Assembly: GCA_017619445.1 (NCBI GenBank)
Contig: JAFZSI010000040.1
Location: 89,233 to 153,232 of the forward strand
DNA: 64,000 bases
Direction: 5' to 3'
DNA from: Prevotella sp.
GTDB lineage: Bacteria; Bacteroidota; Bacteroidia; Bacteroidales; Bacteroidaceae
In this document: in pieces, positions 5,313-61,643 of the stretch
Numbering within the stretch: position 1 is the first letter of the stretch
Layout: every line of letters starts with the position of its first letter
The notes under the pieces: generated by a model
Told to the model about the DNA's origin: nothing
Database searches by the model: none
What the model saw: only the letters and a program-made list of their open reading frames with translations
Position numbers and translations under genes: made by a program

Positions 5313-7346
5313 CTACTGCTCAACCACCACGCCCCCATTACAAGGGATGGTGATGCTGAGCTGCTGCTTGCTGCTCACTTTCTGTGCCTTCACGCAGCCG
5401 TTTAGCTTTGTATCGTCGCTATATACGCGCACAGATGTTCCTTTCTTCAGCATGGGCAGAGAGATTGTTTTCTTCAGCGGCTGGCTGTCTGCATTGATAC
5501 CGGCAACAATCCACTTGTCACCACTTCGGCGTGCCAGGATGACGTAGCTGCCAGGATAACCGTCAATAAAGCGCACCTCATCCCACGTGGTAGGCACTCG
5601 TTTCATGAAGTCAATGGCCCACGCAGGAGCATCTGTCAGGTTGTTTGGAGCCAATGCAAAGTGCTGCACAGGGCTTTGGAACAGCACGGCCACAGCCAGG
5701 GCAAACACGTCGCTGGTGCGGCGCACGGTGCCGTGCTGGTTGTCGGCATTGTAGAACTTGTTGAGCGCAGAACCACCGAAGTCCATCGCTCCAACGGTGT
5801 TGCGTACAAACGGATGGATGCAGGCATTGCGGGCCTCAGCGTCGCAGGCTCCTTGTCCGAAGTGCAGGTTCTCGGAGGCCAGCACAGCCTCGCTGGCGGC
5901 ATAGTTGGGATACATACGCTCCCATCCTCGCGGCAGTGTGCAGCCATGGAAGATTACTAACAGACCGAAATCGTTGGCATCGGCCAGGATGTCTTCGTAA
6001 AGCTGCATCATGGGCTGTTTGTCGCCACCGAAGAAGTCAACTTTGATGCCGCGGATGCCATTGTCGTGCATCCAGCGCATCTCCTCGCGGCGAATGCGTG
6101 CGTTGTTCATCTTGCCAATGGGGGTCTGCGGTGCATCATTCCATGAGCCGTTGCTGTTGTACCACAAGAACAGGCCCACACCTTTCTGCTTGCCATAGCG
6201 CGCCAACTCGGCAATGCGCTCGTAGCCAATCTCACGGTCCCAGAAAGCATCTATCAGCACGCTCTGGTAACCCATTTCGGCAGAAAAATCAATGTAACGC
6301 TTCTGCTCGTCGTAATTACAACTGGGGTCCATGCCAATAATCCAGCTCCATGAGCCCTTGCCGTAGATATACTCCTGTGAGGCTTTGTATTTGGGCTGCA
6401 CAAGGTCGAACGGAACTGTAGTCTCAACAATATTTGCCAACGAACCGAGGGTGATGGTGCGCCAAGGTGTCTCACCTGGCAGCGACATGGCGGGTGTCAC
6501 CGAACCGATACCGTTCAGCTCTCCAGCCTGCGGGAATCCAATACGATAGGTGCCACCCTGTTCGTTGAGCAAACGGCATCCCACATAACCGCCGTCAGTG
6601 CCCGTCTCGCTGACAAGAACCCACAGAGAGGGAACCCACCCCGCCCCTCCCGAGGGGAGGGAGTTTTTTTTAGTTTTGCTATTGTGTGGGTAATTAGGTC
6701 TCCCTCCCTTTGGGAGGGTTGGGGTGGGTTGAACTTTGAACAGGCACGGGAACGTATAACCCTCGCCCCAGCCGTTCTTGCCCACAGGTTCATCAAGTGT
6801 GTAGGGTGTCTCGTAACTGGGAGAAGTGCGTGCGAAACCGCCCATAGGTTTCGATTGCGGACAGAGGAATGTGGTTGTGCCGTCGGGCATGACAAAGCTG
6901 CTGGCCTCGCTCTCCACCACACACACACGGGTATCTCGTTTTGGATAGATTCTGTAACGGAATGCCACGTCGCGATTGCTCACACGGAAAATGATGTCCA
7001 TGACGGGCTTGCCGTTCTGCAAGTAGGTCGCCACACATTCGTTTGCCTCGTAGTCAACACGGCTCTGCTTGATGTTGCGAAGGCTATAGGTATCGCTAAC
7101 AGACTTCTGTGTGAAATCTTTTGACAAGGCCAGGCCCTGAGTATAATCACCGATATTCGTCACCACACCGAGGGGAGAGGGCTGCAACACTTCCTGCCCC
7201 TGATAGAGCACACGATAATGGGGTTTGCCCTGTTCCAACAGTTCAAGAATCACTTGCACTTTTCCGTCAGGGCTTTGCACCATTTGTGCCCTTCCAACCA
7301 TTGTCAGGCACATCAGTGCGATGCAAAGAAAAAAAATCTTTTTCAT
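5313..7346 (-). CDS. GH97 glycosidase with an in-frame repeat insertion
   Basis: A 677-residue secreted GH97 enzyme. ATG at 7346 gives the signal peptide MKKIFFLCIALMCLTMVGRA, followed by the family start MVQSPDGKVQVIL; the open frame extends upstream into repeat DNA and should be ignored. The barrel carries SWSWIIGMD, VLIDAFWDRE, FLWYNSNGSW and IKVDFFGGD. The Asp of KVDFF (about residue 437) and Glu of AASEAV (about 486) fit the retaining, alpha-galactosidase-like branch. Residues ~205-240 (PTPTLPKGG ... SLPSGGAGWVP) have no counterpart in the family and are encoded by a palindromic repeat element (6633-6730). They sit in the N-terminal beta-sandwich between FPCLFK and LWVLVSETG. The frame is kept, so the protein may still fold. 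It is a paralogue of the GH97 at 214-2097. Confidence 0.9.
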   Translation of the reverse strand: MKKIFFLCIALMCLTMVGRAQMVQSPDGKVQVILELLEQGKPHYRVLYQGQEVLQPSPLGVVTNIGDYTQGLALSKDFTQKSVSDTYSLRNIKQSRVDYEANECVATYLQNGKPVMDIIFRVSNRDVAFRYRIYPKRDTRVCVVESEASSFVMPDGTTTFLCPQSKPMGGFARTSPSYETPYTLDEPVGKNGWGEGYTFPCLFKVQPTPTLPKGGRPNYPHNSKTKKNSLPSGGAGWVPSLWVLVSETGTDGGYVGCRLLNEQGGTYRIGFPQAGELNGIGSVTPAMSLPGETPWRTITLGSLANIVETTVPFDLVQPKYKASQEYIYGKGSWSWIIGMDPSCNYDEQKRYIDFSAEMGYQSVLIDAFWDREIGYERIAELARYGKQKGVGLFLWYNSNGSWNDAPQTPIGKMNNARIRREEMRWMHDNGIRGIKVDFFGGDKQPMMQLYEDILADANDFGLLVIFHGCTLPRGWERMYPNYAASEAVLASENLHFGQGACDAEARNACIHPFVRNTVGAMDFGGSALNKFYNADNQHGTVRRTSDVFALAVAVLFQSPVQHFALAPNNLTDAPAWAIDFMKRVPTTWDEVRFIDGYPGSYVILARRSGDKWIVAGINADSQPLKKTISLPMLKKGTSVRVYSDDTKLNGCVKAQKVSSKQQLSITIPCNGGVVVEQ
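6633..6730. repeat. Palindromic element with terminal inverted repeats, inserted in frame in GH97
   Basis: A 98-nt unit. Left arm 6633-6663 and right arm 6700-6730 are inverted copies (27 of 31 positions match by eye). Each arm is itself a hairpin of the CCCTCCC...GGGAGGG type next to a CCCACCCC/GGGGTGGG block. A 36-nt AT-rich core lies between. GAACTTTGAAC follows at 6731-6741, the same short repeat that splits the GH43 gene at 11321. Single arms occur at 4234-4265 and three times at 61435-61572. Confidence 0.88.
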
Positions 7347-34954: not shown

Positions 34955-35175
34955 GTGGGCGTAAAGCACGGCGAGAACAACGTTGTGCTTTACGCTCAAA
35001 TTTTCTAGAAAATTTTGTCGCAAAGTTTGGGTTTATGATTGTAACCCATAGCTTTGTTTTTGTAAAGTGCAGAGTTGTTTTTGTAAAGTGCAGAGTTATT
35101 TCTGTAAAGCATCACTTGGCGATTATAAAGTAACACTCTACGCTCAAATTTTCTAGAAAATTTAGTTATAAACCT
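34955..35175. repeat. TTTTCTAGAAAA-core palindromic repeats, copies 2 and 3
   Basis: GGGCGTAAAGCAC pairs with GTGCTTTACGCTC, then AAATTTTCTAGAAAATTTT (34997-35015). TTGTAAAGTGCAGAGTT follows twice in tandem, and a second AAATTTTCTAGAAAATTTA lies at 35146-35164 with GTTATAAACC after it. The rest of the gap 34867-35380 shows only the terminator below; no gene. Confidence 0.85.
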
Positions 35176-49159: not shown

Positions 49160-49328
49160 CAAACCCATGCTTTACATTCAAATTTTCTAGAAAATTTCAC
49201 CGTAAACCCACGGTTTATTCACCGCCATGTGCGGAGTTATTCTCACAACACTTTGCACTGGCAAAACAAAGGGGCACTTTACTTCCAAATTTTCTAGAAA
49301 ATCTGAGCGTAAAGTGCCCCTTTGTTTT
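49160..49328. repeat. TTTTCTAGAAAA-core repeats and a 20-bp perfect hairpin
   Basis: One core at 49180-49196. The second core (49288-49299) sits in the loop of a large hairpin: AAAACAAAGGGGCACTTTAC (49263-49282) pairs perfectly with GTAAAGTGCCCCTTTGTTTT (49309-49328). Followed by imperfect 24-nt units TGTGCTGGACGGTGTTTnC (49345-49440). No gene is visible in 48960-49670. Confidence 0.85.
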
Positions 49329-49879: not shown

Positions 49880-49889
49880 AGGAGGTTAT

Positions 49890-49925
49890 CTCGCACCCCC
49901 ATACCTTCGTACCCCCGTACCCCCG
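49890..49925. repeat. GTACCCCC repeat arm in the regulator leader
   Basis: CTCGCACCCCCATACCTTCG followed by TACCCCCGTACCCCCG. It matches the right arm of the element inside prmC (58771-58805). Preceded by AGGAGAGAAGGAGTAAAGGA filler, a type also found before the RNase H gene. Confidence 0.82.
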
Positions 49926-49944
49926 AAAAAGTATAAAAAATACC

Positions 49945-52900
49945 GTGAGAGTGAAAAAGCTATTTTGTATTCTTACCGCCATCTTTGCATGCCACATTGC
50001 CTTGTATGCACAGATGGGTAAATTGTTTGACGCTAACCAGCAGCTGTCAAGCAGCTTCACCAGCCAGGTTTATTTAGACCACGACGGATTCATCTGGTCG
50101 GCCACACGCAACGGACTGAACAAATATGACGGCTACCAGTTCCGCATCTACAAGAAAGAGGAGCAGAACGGCACGGGCATGGCCAGCAACTACGTGAACT
50201 GCATCATTCAGGACAGCAAGGGGCTGTTCTACCTCGGCATGTGGGGCGCGCTGCAAACCTACGACGGTGTGCGCTGCCGCGACGTGGAGGTGAAAGACCT
50301 GCAGGGACGAATCATGAAGCCTTATATCACATGCTTCGCCGAGCGCAAGAACGGCGAGATGTGGGTAGGCACGTCGGGGGTTGGCGTACTGAAGGTTGAC
50401 GACCAGCAGCATGCCCAGCAGGTGGGCGGGCCGCTGAAAGACATCCACACCGCCAACCACATGATGGAGGACAGCCGCGGCCGTATGTGGATAGTCACAC
50501 AAAGACACGGACTGCTGTGCTTCAACGGGCAGCGGGTGCAGGCATTTATGACCAATACCTCCGCAGCGAGCCATCTCACCAAGGTGAGCGAGGACAAGCA
50601 GGGCAACATCTACGTGGGCACTTCAAGCGAGGGGCTGTTCCGCCTCAACGGCAACCAGTTTGAACCGGTGCCGGGCACACAGGGAAAGTCGGTGAGCGAA
50701 CTCTACTGCAACCGCAACGGCAAGCTGATGATTGGCTACGACGGTGCAGGACTGGCCATCTACGACCCCAAGACGGGCAGCATTGCCGACAACCCTTTCT
50801 TCAGTCAGGAAATAGACCTCACCGGCTGCAAAATTTACTCCATCACTGAGGACAAAAGCGGCAACTACTGGTTCGGCATCCTGCAAAAGGGCCTTTACAT
50901 GCAGCCGGCAGCTTCCACAGGCTTCAACTACATGGGCTACAAACTGGGCGCACACAATAAAATTGGGCAGGCCTGTGTCATCAGCACGTTCATCGACAGC
51001 CAGCGGCGCATCTGGATTGGCACCGACAGAGACGGGCTCTATTGCTTCGACGCCAACCAACAACTGAAAAAGCACTATAAAGACCATTTCCCCGCCACGG
51101 TGATGACCGTTTGCGAGGACAAGAGCGGGCGCATCTGGATTGGCTCCTACAACGATGGGGGTGGATGGATTGAGCCCAACAGCGGACAGTATCACCCGCT
51201 GACCATGGCACAGATGAGTAACGTCAGCATCTTTGACGTGGAGGTGGACAAGGAAAACCGGCTGTGGATGGCCACCATGGGGCAGGGCCTCGTCATGATT
51301 GACCTGCAGACCAACGAGATGAAAGCCTACACCGCCAGGAACGGGGCGTCGGACAACCCCGCCATCAACAGCATCACCAACGACTACATTTCGCAGCTGT
51401 CGCTGTCGCCCGACGGCAAGCGCGTCTATGTGGCTACGACCATGGGCGTGTGCTGTTTAGACATCGACCGGCAGAGCTGGACAAACTTCTTCGGGAAAAA
51501 CTGTCTTAATTATGGCACACCCGTGCGCATCGCACGCGAGTTTTCGGGCAGCCTGTGGATTGGCACCAACAACGGACTCTACCGGTACAGCCTTTCCAAC
51601 AAGCAGCTGCAGCGCTATACGGCCGAACAGGGCGTGGCCGACTACGGCATCGCCTCCATCGAGCAAGACGCCGACGGACGGCTATGGATTTCGACCGACC
51701 ACGGGCTCTGCTGCCACGACCCGAAAGAGGGCATCACGCAAAACTACTTCATTGACAACGGACTGCAGTCGAACGAGTTCAGCGATGGCGCTTCGTGGTC
51801 GGCACCCAACGGCACCATGGTGTTCGGAGGCGTTGGCGGCGTCACGTGGTTCTCGCCGTCTGAAATCAAACAGGCAAAATGGGATGCCTCGGTGCAGCTC
51901 ACCGCATTCACCATCAACGGCGAGCCCGTCAACTCGGAAACCATCTCGGGGCGTTTCCATGTCACCGACACCACCGCCATTGCAAGCAACCGGTTTGAGC
52001 TGGGCTACCACGACAACTCTTTTGCCATACAGTTCTCAACGCTCACCTACGACAACCCCGAGCACATCACCTACCTTTACAGCATCAACGGCGAGTCGTT
52101 TGTCAGACTGCAGCCGGGTGTCAACGAAATCACATTCTCGCATCTGGCACCAGGCACCTACAAGTTTCGTGTGAAAGCCGAGCGCAACAGTCAGGAGACG
52201 GCCCTGCGCGAATTTACCGTCGTGGTGCACAGCCCGTGGTACCGCTCAACACTCGCCTACCTCATCTACCTGCTGCTCGCAGCGTTTGCCGTGTGGCAAT
52301 ACCTCAAGATTCAACGCCGCAAACAGCAAGACCGCCTGCGGCTCCAAGAGCACATGCACGCCGAGGAGATGGGCGAGGCCAAACTGCGCTTCTTCATGAA
52401 CATCAGCCACGAGATTCGCACCCCCATGACGCTCATCATCACACCGCTGCTCTCGCTCATGAAAGAAGACACCGACCCCAACCGACGCAGCGTCTATCAG
52501 ACCATCAAACGAAACGCCGAGCGAATACTCAACCTCATCAACCAGATGATGGACCTGCGGAAAATCGACAAGGGAATGATGCGCATGCACATGCAGGAAA
52601 CCGACCTCGTGGGCTTTGTACAGGAAATCCATACGCTCTTTGAGCATCAGGCAGACGCCAAGCAGATAGCACTTACCTATGAGCACGACTCCGACACGCT
52701 GCCCGTGTGGATTGACCGCAAGAATTTCGACAAGGTGGTGGTCAACATCCTGTCCAACGCCTTCAAGTACACGCCTATAGGTGGCAAGATTGACATCCGC
52801 GTCTCTCACGATGATCAGAATGCCACCATCACCTTCAGCAACAATGGCGAGAACATTCCTGAGGACAAAATCGACAAAATATTCGAGCGATTCTATCAAA

Positions 52901-57888: not shown

Positions 57889-58308
57889 ATGAGAAAATAC
57901 GCATTCACACTGGCATTCATCATCGGCATGTTGATGTTTGCATTGCCAACAGAGGCCCAGACGCTGCGCAACGGCAGCGGCTCGGCTGTAGGAAAAGTTG
58001 AGAGCGACGGCACCGTGCGCAACAGCAGCGGCAGCCGCATCGGTAAGTTTGAGAGCGACGGCACCGTGCGCAACAGCAGCGGCAGCCGCATCGGCAAGAT
58101 TGAGAGCGACGGCACCGTGCGCAACGGCAGCGGCAGCAGCATCGGCAAGGTTGAGAGCGACGGCACCGTGCGCAACAGCAGCGGCAGCCGCATCGGCAAG
58201 GTTGAGAGTGACGGCACCGTGCGCAACGGCAACGGCAGCAGCATCGGCAAGGCTGAGGGTGTGAACCGCAAACATGCCGCGGCTTGTTTCTTCTTCTTTT
58301 TCAACTAA
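57889..58308 (+). CDS. Secreted 5-fold beta-flower-type repeat protein
   Basis: A 139-residue protein: signal peptide MRKYAFTLAFIIGMLMFALP, then near-identical 17-residue units of the form ESDGTVRNSSGSRIGKV (five, plus a partial first). It ends in a short tail with HAAACFFFFFN. The 51-nt DNA units are almost identical, so copy number could change by slippage. Small exported proteins with this DGTVRN...IG pattern are known in Bacteroidota as 5-fold beta-flower proteins; their role is not known to me. It is divergent from ribD and 72 nt before prmC. Confidence 0.85.
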   Translation: MRKYAFTLAFIIGMLMFALPTEAQTLRNGSGSAVGKVESDGTVRNSSGSRIGKFESDGTVRNSSGSRIGKIESDGTVRNGSGSSIGKVESDGTVRNSSGSRIGKVESDGTVRNGNGSSIGKAEGVNRKHAAACFFFFFN

Positions 58309-58312
58309 ACTA

Positions 58313-58370
58313 GTATTTCTAGAACATCTAGAGCATCTAGAAAATCTAGAATATCTAGCCCATCCAGAAA
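58313..58370. repeat. TCTAGA-rich spacer before prmC
   Basis: Seven CTAG tetramers at ~9-nt spacing (ATCTAGAGC, ATCTAGAAA, ATCTAGAAT units). CTAG is normally rare in bacterial DNA. It shares the TCTAGA word with the palindromic family but not its flanks. Confidence 0.7.
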
Positions 58371-58380
58371 AAGACCCATC

Positions 58381-59334
58381 ATGATTTACCACGACTTCTG
58401 GCAACAACTGACCAGCACATACGAAACGGGCGAGGCGAAAGCCGTCGCCCGTTATGTTTTTGAGCATTGTTTCGGTCTTACCATGGCCGACCTGCTGTGC
58501 GGCAAGGACAGCCTGTTGACCGAAAGCGAGCAAGCGCGTCTGCAAGCACTCTGCCAGCGGTTGCTGACGGGGGAACCTGTGCAGTATGTCACGGGCGTGG
58601 CAGAGTTTGGCCCGCTGTTGCTGCATGTAGAGCCAGGAGTATTGATTCCCAGACCAGAAACCTACGAGCTGTGCCAGTGGGTGAAGAATGATTCTCGGAG
58701 GTACGGGGGTACGGAGATACGGGGGTACGAGAACAGTTTTTCTAATGGAGACTCAAGTGCGAATGCAAATCTCGTACCTCAGCACCTCCGTACCCCCGTA
58801 CCCCCGGGAAACGCCCCGAAGATTCTTGACATCGGCACGGGCAGCGGCTGCATCGCCATCACACTGGCCCAAACCTACCATTCGGTCACAGCCTGGGACA
58901 TCAGCGACGAGGCCCTGCGCATTGCAGCAAAGAATGCGGAAACCACCGGCGTCAGCGTCACCTTCGAAAAGCACGACATCCTCACCAGCCTTTCTCCCCA
59001 AATCTCAACCCTCAACCCCCGCTGGGACATCATCGTGAGCAACCCGCCCTACATCTGCCGCAACGAACAGCACGCGATGGAACAAAACGTGCTGGCATTT
59101 GAGCCCCATTTGGCCCTCTTTGTTCCCGACGACGACCCACTGCTCTTCTACCGCGCCATTGCCCGCTACGCCAAACACGCCCTCAACCCCGGCGGTCGTA
59201 TGTATTTTGAAATCAACCCACTCTATCACACTGAGCTTTTGCAATTGCTCGCCACCGAAGGCTTCACCGCCATCACCTCGCGCCGCGACCAGTTCGGAAA
59301 AACCCGTTTCGTCAGAGCTTCAACTGGTAATTGA
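58381..59334 (+). CDS. prmC: Release-factor glutamine N5-methyltransferase PrmC with an in-frame repeat insertion
   Basis: A 317-residue enzyme that methylates the GGQ glutamine of peptide-chain release factors. The N-terminal helical domain ends with GVLIPRPETYELCQWVK. The SAM site is ILDIGTGSGCIAI (~148-160) and the catalytic NPPY motif is IIVSNPPYI (NPPY 221-224). Normally some 10-15 residues join RPETxEL and the SAM strand. Here residues ~105-143 (RRYGGTEIRGYENSF ... LRTPVPPG) are extra and are encoded by the palindromic element 58697-58805. A smaller extra PQISTLNP (~206-213) is also made of repeat-like CAAATCTCAACCCTCAAC. The frame is intact, so this essential-type enzyme presumably tolerates both. 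Confidence 0.94.
   Translation: MIYHDFWQQLTSTYETGEAKAVARYVFEHCFGLTMADLLCGKDSLLTESEQARLQALCQRLLTGEPVQYVTGVAEFGPLLLHVEPGVLIPRPETYELCQWVKNDSRRYGGTEIRGYENSFSNGDSSANANLVPQHLRTPVPPGNAPKILDIGTGSGCIAITLAQTYHSVTAWDISDEALRIAAKNAETTGVSVTFEKHDILTSLSPQISTLNPRWDIIVSNPPYICRNEQHAMEQNVLAFEPHLALFVPDDDPLLFYRAIARYAKHALNPGGRMYFEINPLYHTELLQLLATEGFTAITSRRDQFGKTRFVRASTGN
58697..58805. repeat. Palindromic element with 35-nt terminal inverted repeats inside prmC
   Basis: Left arm 58697-58731 and right arm 58771-58805 are inverted copies; 30 of 35 positions match by eye. Each arm is built from GTACGGGGGTACGGAG units. A 39-nt core lies between. One isolated arm is at 49890-49925. Same architecture and size as the unrelated-sequence element in GH97. 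Confidence 0.88.
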
Positions 59335-59340
59335 CAATTG

Positions 59341-59494
59341 TAAATAGTAAATAGTAAATCCGTAAACAGTAAATCCGTAAATTGTAAATAGTAAATCCGT
59401 AAATAGTAAATCCGTAAATAGTAAATCCGTAAATAGTAAATCCGTAAATAGTAAATCCGTAAATAGTAAATAGTAAATCAGTAAATAGTAAATA
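59341..59494. repeat. 15-bp tandem repeat AGTAAATCCGTAAAT, about ten copies
   Basis: Units of AGTAAATCCGTAAAT with variants (AGTAAATAGTAAAT, AGTAAACAGTAAAT) fill the gap between prmC and recX and end 6 nt before the recX start codon. No unique spacers, so not CRISPR. Confidence 0.88.
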
Positions 59495-59499
59495 ATAAA

Positions 59500-60739: not shown

Positions 60740-61030
60740 TTATGCTTTATAATCCCAATGTTTCAGTTTACGATTACAAAGCATAAGTTTACGATTACAA
60801 AGTTTAGGTTTATGACAAAATTCTCTAGAAAATTTAGATAAAAACTTCACGTTCGGCAAAGAAAACAAGCTTTCTGTGTGCTCACTTACTCAGTTTTTTG
60901 AACGTAAAGCATTGCTTTGCAAAACTCACTCTATACTTTGTATTTCTAAAGTGGCACTCTACGGACACAAAGTGGCACTTTACGGACACAAAGAGCCACT
61001 CTATGTATGAATTTTCTAGAAAATCTACAC
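60740..61030. repeat. TTTTCTAGAAAA-core repeats, copies 6 and 7, with argS-type upstream repeat
   Basis: TTTACGATTACAAAGCATAA, TTTACGATTACAAAGTTTAG, then AAAATTCTCTAGAAAATTTA (60818-60837). 60843-60898 copies the argS upstream region. CACAAAGTGGCACTTTACGG-type units follow. GAATTTTCTAGAAAATCT is at 61009-61026. Confidence 0.85.
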
Positions 61031-61077
61031 GTACACCTACGCAGTGCTTCCACAACGAGCAAGCTTACGAAATTAAA

Positions 61078-61371: not shown

Positions 61372-61434
61372 CAATCATAAACAAAGCATAACTATAGAAA
61401 CGTAATACACCCCTCCCAACACCCAACTTCACTA

Positions 61435-61572
61435 CTCCCTCCCTTGGGGAGGGTTGGGGTGGGTTCCTCCCAACACCCAACTTCACGACTCCCTCCCTTG
61501 GGGAGGGTTGGGGTGGGTCCTCCCAACACCCAACTTCACGACTCCCTCCCTTGGGGAGGGTTGGGGTGGGTT
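61435..61572. repeat. Three tandem copies of the CCCTCCCTTGGGGAGGG module
   Basis: Units starting at 61435, 61489 and 61542 (54 and 53 nt apart): CTCCCTCCCTTGGGGAGGGT, then TGGGGTGGGTTCCTCCCAAC and ACCCAACTTCAC. It is the arm of the element found inside the GH97 gene. The gap 60690-61671 is thus almost wholly repeats. Confidence 0.88.
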
Positions 61573-61643
61573 CTCTCTTTCCCACGTTACACACGGCAAA
61601 GTATTTAATACACCTAACCACCGCATTTCTCAAGAACATTCAT

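Follow-up and report, generated by a model that had tools for sequence, protein, structure and literature searches.

The prmC gene of a Prevotella sp. genome, which lies in the window (the whole stretch of 64,000 nucleotides that was analysed), carries a long palindrome within its reading frame. This locus raises the question of what the inserted segment is and how the gene of a release-factor methyltransferase came to carry it. Palindromic elements that lie in frame within genes are known mainly from Rickettsia and Wolbachia, besides scattered REP insertions, and the Rickettsia palindromic elements (RPEs) were reportedly described by Ogata et al. in 2000 and 2002. We consider it likely that a miniature palindromic element, which is dispersed in Prevotella-type bacteria and behaves like RPEs, has left one of its copies in prmC. 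The features that are discussed are shown in Table 1.

Table 1. Features of the window and their positions.
Feature	Position	Strand	Remarks
prmC, release-factor glutamine methyltransferase, 317 aa	58381..59334	+	insert at codons 106-142
Palindromic element in prmC	58696..58806	+	111 bp, exactly 37 codons
Left arm	58696..58729	+	four octamers CGnnGGTA (one varies) plus CG; encodes RRYGGTEIRGY
Core, 43 nt	58730..58772	+	encodes (E)NSFSNGDSSANAN(L)
Right arm	58773..58806	+	inverted octamers; encodes VPQHLRTPVPP
Isolated single arm, same octamer family	about 49889-49929	-	pattern match, upstream of histidine-kinase-like ORF
GH97 element	6633..6730		inverted pair of 31-nt self-hairpin repeat, inside GH97 gene; different family

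The insert and the linker of PrmC

The inverted arms at 58692-58732 and 58770-58810 are 41 nt each, 85% complementary, and 37 nt apart. The unit proper begins with CGG at 58696, ends with CCG at 58806, and lies in codon phase. Both arms are built of tandem octamers (four per side, with some variation) that read CGnnGGTA on the left and its reverse complement on the right, and the resulting palindrome is imperfect and has the terminal inverted repeats by which a MITE is recognised. A 17-nt octamer-pair pattern that was searched with at most three mismatches gave eight hits in the window, compared with 0.09 expected by chance. The predicted RNA fold of the prmC copy is -71.1 kcal/mol (z = -8.2, 200 shuffles). 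The arm pairing, the pattern statistics, and the fold thus confirm the palindrome with inverted ends that an earlier note on this DNA had placed inside prmC, although its unit is slightly longer than the 109 nt given there. The isolated arm that the same note reported at 49890 was also found, and it sits between a simple repeat and the histidine-kinase-like ORF starting at 49945. Rfam matches of the element were rejected as its identity; they lie far below the gathering scores and are chiefly of microRNA type, which reflects the long hairpin.

The host gene was identified by TIGR03534 (213.6 bits with a cut-off of 199.1) together with the NPPY motif, and its product also has Pfam matches to PrmC_N and the methyltransferase domain. 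PrmC-type matches, some of which may be paralogues, were obtained in all 60 genomes searched. PrmC loci from 29 relatives were compared, of which 28 were parsed (two of these were judged by eye). The element is absent from PrmC in all 28 parsed relatives and none of them has the octamer peptide, so the condition under which the earlier note would have given up its reading, presence of the segment in all Prevotella PrmC proteins, does not hold. The linker from IPRPET to the SAM motif is 16-37 aa long in the 28 relatives and 53 aa long in the PrmC of the window. The alignment with the solved structure of HemK (1sg9) breaks at query residues 109-148 and HemK residues 121-125, leaving 38 residues in the query and three in HemK between the two aligned stretches. 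The insert therefore lies between the N-terminal and linker region of PrmC and the start of the methyltransferase fold, in agreement with its earlier placement between the substrate domain and the SAM-binding strand.

NPPY and the remaining invariant columns are intact in the PrmC of the window when 26 PrmC sequences are aligned. The interrupted prmC is probably the working gene copy since no second full-length PrmC is listed for its own genome. The insert would be translated as part of PrmC, and the enzyme that carries it is presumably still active. The linker that precedes the SAM-binding fold, whose length varies naturally, would gain 37 hydrophilic residues in this way.

The PrmC linker is an insertion-tolerant spot because two relatives carry other genome-wide repeats there. 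The linker DNA has 48 matches in the genome of one relative (G034, locus L042) and 51 matches in that of the other (G023, locus L033); each count covers the two strands and includes the site of the query itself. The linker repeats of these two proteins and of the PrmC of the window are mutually unrelated by eye and, judged in the same way, three repeat families have entered one PrmC linker in three species. Repeats also surround the gene in the window. The ORF directly upstream of prmC contains a 51-nt tandem repeat that is five-fold (57997-58257), and arrays of TCTAGAACA and GTAAATAGTAAATCC lie on either side of prmC (58318-58371 and 59340-59499).

Dispersal of the element and the question of its mover

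The genome that carries the window (a draft of 2.87 Mb that is 85% complete) has 56 matches to the element, 13 of which are full palindromes after strand duplicates and single arms were removed by eye. The earlier suggestion of a dispersed repeat element is therefore borne out. Matches were found in at least 22 of the 299 genomes of the genus and in at least one of the 295 genomes of the order, namely the own genome, where both counts are lower bounds because scoring was limited to two candidates per genome. A scan of GTDB representatives with the exact pattern gave six stretches, all in the Prevotellaceae assemblies RUG414 and RUG12386, and the RUG12386 locus belongs to the genome G323. We take the RUG in these assembly titles to stand for rumen genomes. 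The G034 genome, which belongs to the genus of the window, has 37 full copies by our own count. A search of virus contigs with one exact arm pattern gave no match, and the element search of plasmids and phages returned nothing. The element is thus restricted to one genus in the samples searched. No description of such an element in Prevotella was found among the open-licence papers that were searched.

The 105 loci that were analysed gave 89 non-redundant full copies. Seven loci of G034 have exactly the same right-arm sequence, and two copies (L142 and L156) have both arms identical and similar cores. The recurrence of the same arms with similar cores at distant loci speaks for copying of the element as a whole unit. 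It also makes it unlikely that the palindromes form locally from octamer arrays by slippage or template switching without being mobile as a unit, an explanation that would account for the varying number of octamers and for the single arms and symmetric nested arms that exist. The pairing of arms, which was tested in 72 of the 89 copies, bears on the same explanation. The match between arms of the same copy is 0.838 in the own genome (eight copies) compared with 0.785 under random pairing, a value that was reached by 39 of 5,000 shuffles and that favours local formation. Arms match no better within copies than between copies in G034 (34 copies), G323 (11 copies), and the other genomes (19 copies), where 4,144, 4,321, and 3,496 of 5,000 shuffles reached the observed value, respectively. 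This result argues against purely local formation of the palindrome and against a kept hairpin. Covariation of arms within copies that would result from a kept hairpin is unsupported in three of the four sets and the signal in the own genome is weak.

Several arrangements were noticed by eye. Four loci (L062, L125, L173, and L091) have nested or tandem arms, and the extra arms often occur to either side, an arrangement that looks like the insertion of a new element into the loop of an older one. In intergenic copies of G034 (for example L133, L137, L142, and L150), the palindrome often lies in the middle of a repeat of about 175 bp with AGTAA/TTACT-like ends, and in several of them one end follows a stop codon while the other closely precedes a start codon. 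No consistent target-site duplication was seen in the flanks that were read, and no clean empty site at the DNA level was found between the genomes of one pair (G109 and G165).

The dispersed copies are best explained as copies of an element that would spread as a whole within the genome, chiefly into intergenic spacers, and that may be moved by a trans-acting enzyme. The earlier note proposed a RAYT/REP-like mechanism, in which a Y1 tyrosine transposase (a RAYT) would move the element as a REPIN, a pair of inverted REPs. The size, the inverted pair together with single arms, and the many copies do resemble the REPINs described in PMC3116915. However, one transposase family (PF01797) was searched and no mobilising enzyme was found. 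The own genome has one Y1_Tnp hit, which is below the cut-off. The family was detected (E <= 0.001, with the sub-cut-off hit of the own genome included) in 12 of the 22 element-bearing genomes and in 143 of the 277 other genomes of the genus (Fisher P = 0.83). Three element-bearing genomes that are 96-99% complete (G118, G202, and G309) are without Y1_Tnp. The arms of the prmC copy scarcely form a hairpin of their own when folded singly (-5.2 and -2.3 kcal/mol), and GTAG and CGTC are absent from both strands of its 111 bp. Neither a tagged hairpin for each unit of the prmC copy nor an association with RAYT at the genome level was therefore observed. The RAYT/REP-like mechanism is unsupported by these results, and we regard a REPIN as very improbable.

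Reading frame in the host genes

Full copies of the element lie in frame inside many unrelated genes. A copy was classed as in-gene when a long open frame runs through it with protein on both sides, and 24 of the 89 full copies belong to this class. Six copies whose spanning frame is only 113-236 aa long (L074, L087 at 2285, L125, L148, L155, and L168) were left among the non-coding ones as a matter of judgement. Of the full copies, 4 of 13 are coding in the own genome, 2 of 37 in G034, 2 of 14 in G323, and 16 of 25 in the others; these shares are not rates because the loci were picked by similarity.

Ten hosts are supported by Pfam, namely Dus, CCA/poly(A) polymerase, ArgRS, an HflX-type GTPase, DnaG, KsgA, RsmF, MATE, a CobQ-type protein, and a U32 peptidase. 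With PrmC added, Pfam hits back 11 of the hosts of the coding copies. The remaining hosts are, in our reading, NRPS, a TonB receptor, T9SS C-terminal domains, GH92, a flippase, an epimerase, FeoAB, and others. A single domain match spans the insert for PolyA_pol, DALR_1, and CbiA. KsgA aligns with a solved structure on both sides of the insert. For Dus and the U32 peptidase, the Pfam match is confined to one side of it. The 24 coding copies are not independent, as KsgA is the host in both G034 and G196, CobQ is the host in both G109 and G165, three copies lie in T9SS-type C-termini, and two lie in one ORF. The ten inserts that were checked are hydrophilic (GRAVY -0.85 to -1.49), and in hosts other than PrmC the inserts may likewise sit in loops. 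In two species, the arm sequence forms the C-terminal end of what seems by eye to be the same membrane protein gene (L026 and L076).

That the insert is an assembly artefact of a metagenome-assembled genome has next to no likelihood. The genome is a draft and repeats are hard to assemble, but the prmC frame is intact, the family occurs in other assemblies including the two RUG genomes, and the element is present in KsgA of two genomes.

The core length is one more than a multiple of three in 20 of the 24 coding copies and in 13 of the 65 other copies (Fisher 7e-8), and in 17 of 20 coding copies and 8 of 56 others when the own genome is excluded. This statistic is in part a product of the classification, in which a gene counts as intact only if the frame runs through. 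By eye, one phase is used in 21 of the 24 coding copies, with the peptide RGYENS...NLVPPYPRTP, and three copies (L069, L179, and L180) deviate. Among arms of at least 26 nt, 148 of 160 are open in all six frames. The mean number of open frames out of six is 4.08 in coding copies, compared with 1.74 in their dinucleotide shuffles and 2.81 in random local stretches. The corresponding values are 3.28, 1.09, and 2.53 in non-coding copies, which are thus moderately more open than local DNA and far more open than their own shuffles.

Frame-broken genes were looked for among the other copies by means of open flanks of 300 nt on one strand. The test could be applied to 63 of the 65 copies and three have such flanks, but on inspection by eye the flanks to the left and right appear to belong to different genes; no clear frame-broken gene was found among the 63 testable non-coding copies. 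The sensitivity of this test is given by the coding copies, 19 of 24 of which pass. The five that are missed (L003, L066, L069, L172, and L173) carry their inserts near the 3' end of the frame.

The shared phase and the hydrophilic inserts make it very doubtful that the insert is kept for an RNA hairpin, for example to slow translation or to regulate prmC, rather than as tolerated protein. The predicted hairpins are very stable (-54 to -90.8 kcal/mol in four folded copies), but arm covariation within copies is absent outside the own genome. Translational bypassing as in the mitochondrial byp elements was also considered and set aside, as bypassed segments require no open frame.

Under the preferred reading of an RPE-like dispersed element, copies that land in genes would survive if the frame is kept and the site is a tolerant loop or linker. 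Octamer arms that are almost always free of stop codons in six frames would make the element unusually harmless to coding sequence. A broader reading is possible but is put forward tentatively. The family may be a coding-compatible mobile element whose stop-free octamer arms would give a similar octapeptide repeat whichever frame is read and whose core length would be reset to keep the phase, with the core read nearly always in the RGYENS...NLVPPYPRTP frame. Along with the unrelated repeats found in that PrmC linker in sister species, it would continually provide core enzymes with linkers that are ready for use, and its mover would not be a RAYT.

Comparison with known elements and other repeats in the window

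According to PMC10969869 and PMC3767692, RPEs are palindromes of 100-150 bp that are repeated many times, both in the spacers between genes and, in frame, within genes that are unrelated to each other. The element shares their size, imperfect palindrome, copy number, and in-frame hosts, as it is 111 bp long, matches the own genome 56 times, and lies in frame in 24 of 89 full copies; the likeness is one of behaviour. What sets it apart from RPEs is its host, which is of Prevotella type (Bacteroidota), and the build of its arms from tandem octamers without a stop in any of the six frames. Intragenic GTAG/CGTC REPs also resemble it, as PMC3733652 describes them as palindromic inserts that decorate replication, repair, and tRNA-related proteins and that in over half of the cases code for 20-30 residues. 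However, those REPs are self-hairpins with stems of 5-13 bp and a GTAG/CGTC tag in the same text, and the arms of the prmC copy have neither. REPINs share the inverted repeat pair of similar size and the single units elsewhere, but they are extragenic and RAYT-linked as described in PMC3116915, whereas the element is without RAYT association.

The BrickBuilt MITE of Porphyromonas gingivalis is likewise from Bacteroidales and likewise has short tandem repeats in a miniature inverted-repeat element, but its units are 23 nt long, form a direct array, and are always intergenic (PMC4596501). PARCELs are coding DNA with dyad symmetry that spreads (PMC2996958); they differ in that they form tandem amphipathic domains of 25 residues, frequently within proteins targeted to membranes, whereas the inserts here are single and lie in enzymes. 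In its behaviour the element resembles both RPEs and intragenic REPs, but it lacks the self-folding arm, the tag, and the RAYT association of REPs. It was not filed as an RPE, a REP, or a proven MITE.

In our judgement, what is new is the element family in Prevotella-type bacteria and its nearly stop-free octamer design, and the kind of element is already known. A family in several species of Prevotella type would be a second, independent case of selfish DNA entering proteins, with copies in core enzymes of translation and replication. Such a family lets one ask whether selection sifts the frames and sites or the mode of insertion fixes them, and whether the inserted segments acquire a use afterwards. 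It is also a warning for annotation, as the extra segments in these PrmC, KsgA, and DnaG proteins are repeat DNA and not domains.

The earlier note had compared the prmC insert with the GH97 element as two families of one architecture. This holds in so far as both are inverted pairs. It does not hold for the arms, since the 31-nt GH97 arms fold on their own (-14.8 and -13.0 kcal/mol when folded singly) and those of prmC scarcely do, or for the copies, since the 85 matches of the GH97 element in the own genome are mostly of one arm. The CTCCCTCCC..GGGAGGG-TTGGGGTGGGTT repeats form the inverted pair at 6633-6730 and a three-fold 53-nt array at 61412-61573, and many single copies of this repeat occur elsewhere in the own genome. 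An AT-rich palindromic family built on AAATTTTCTAGAAAATTT is present at 34998-35163, 49170-49328, and 60805-61039 of the window.
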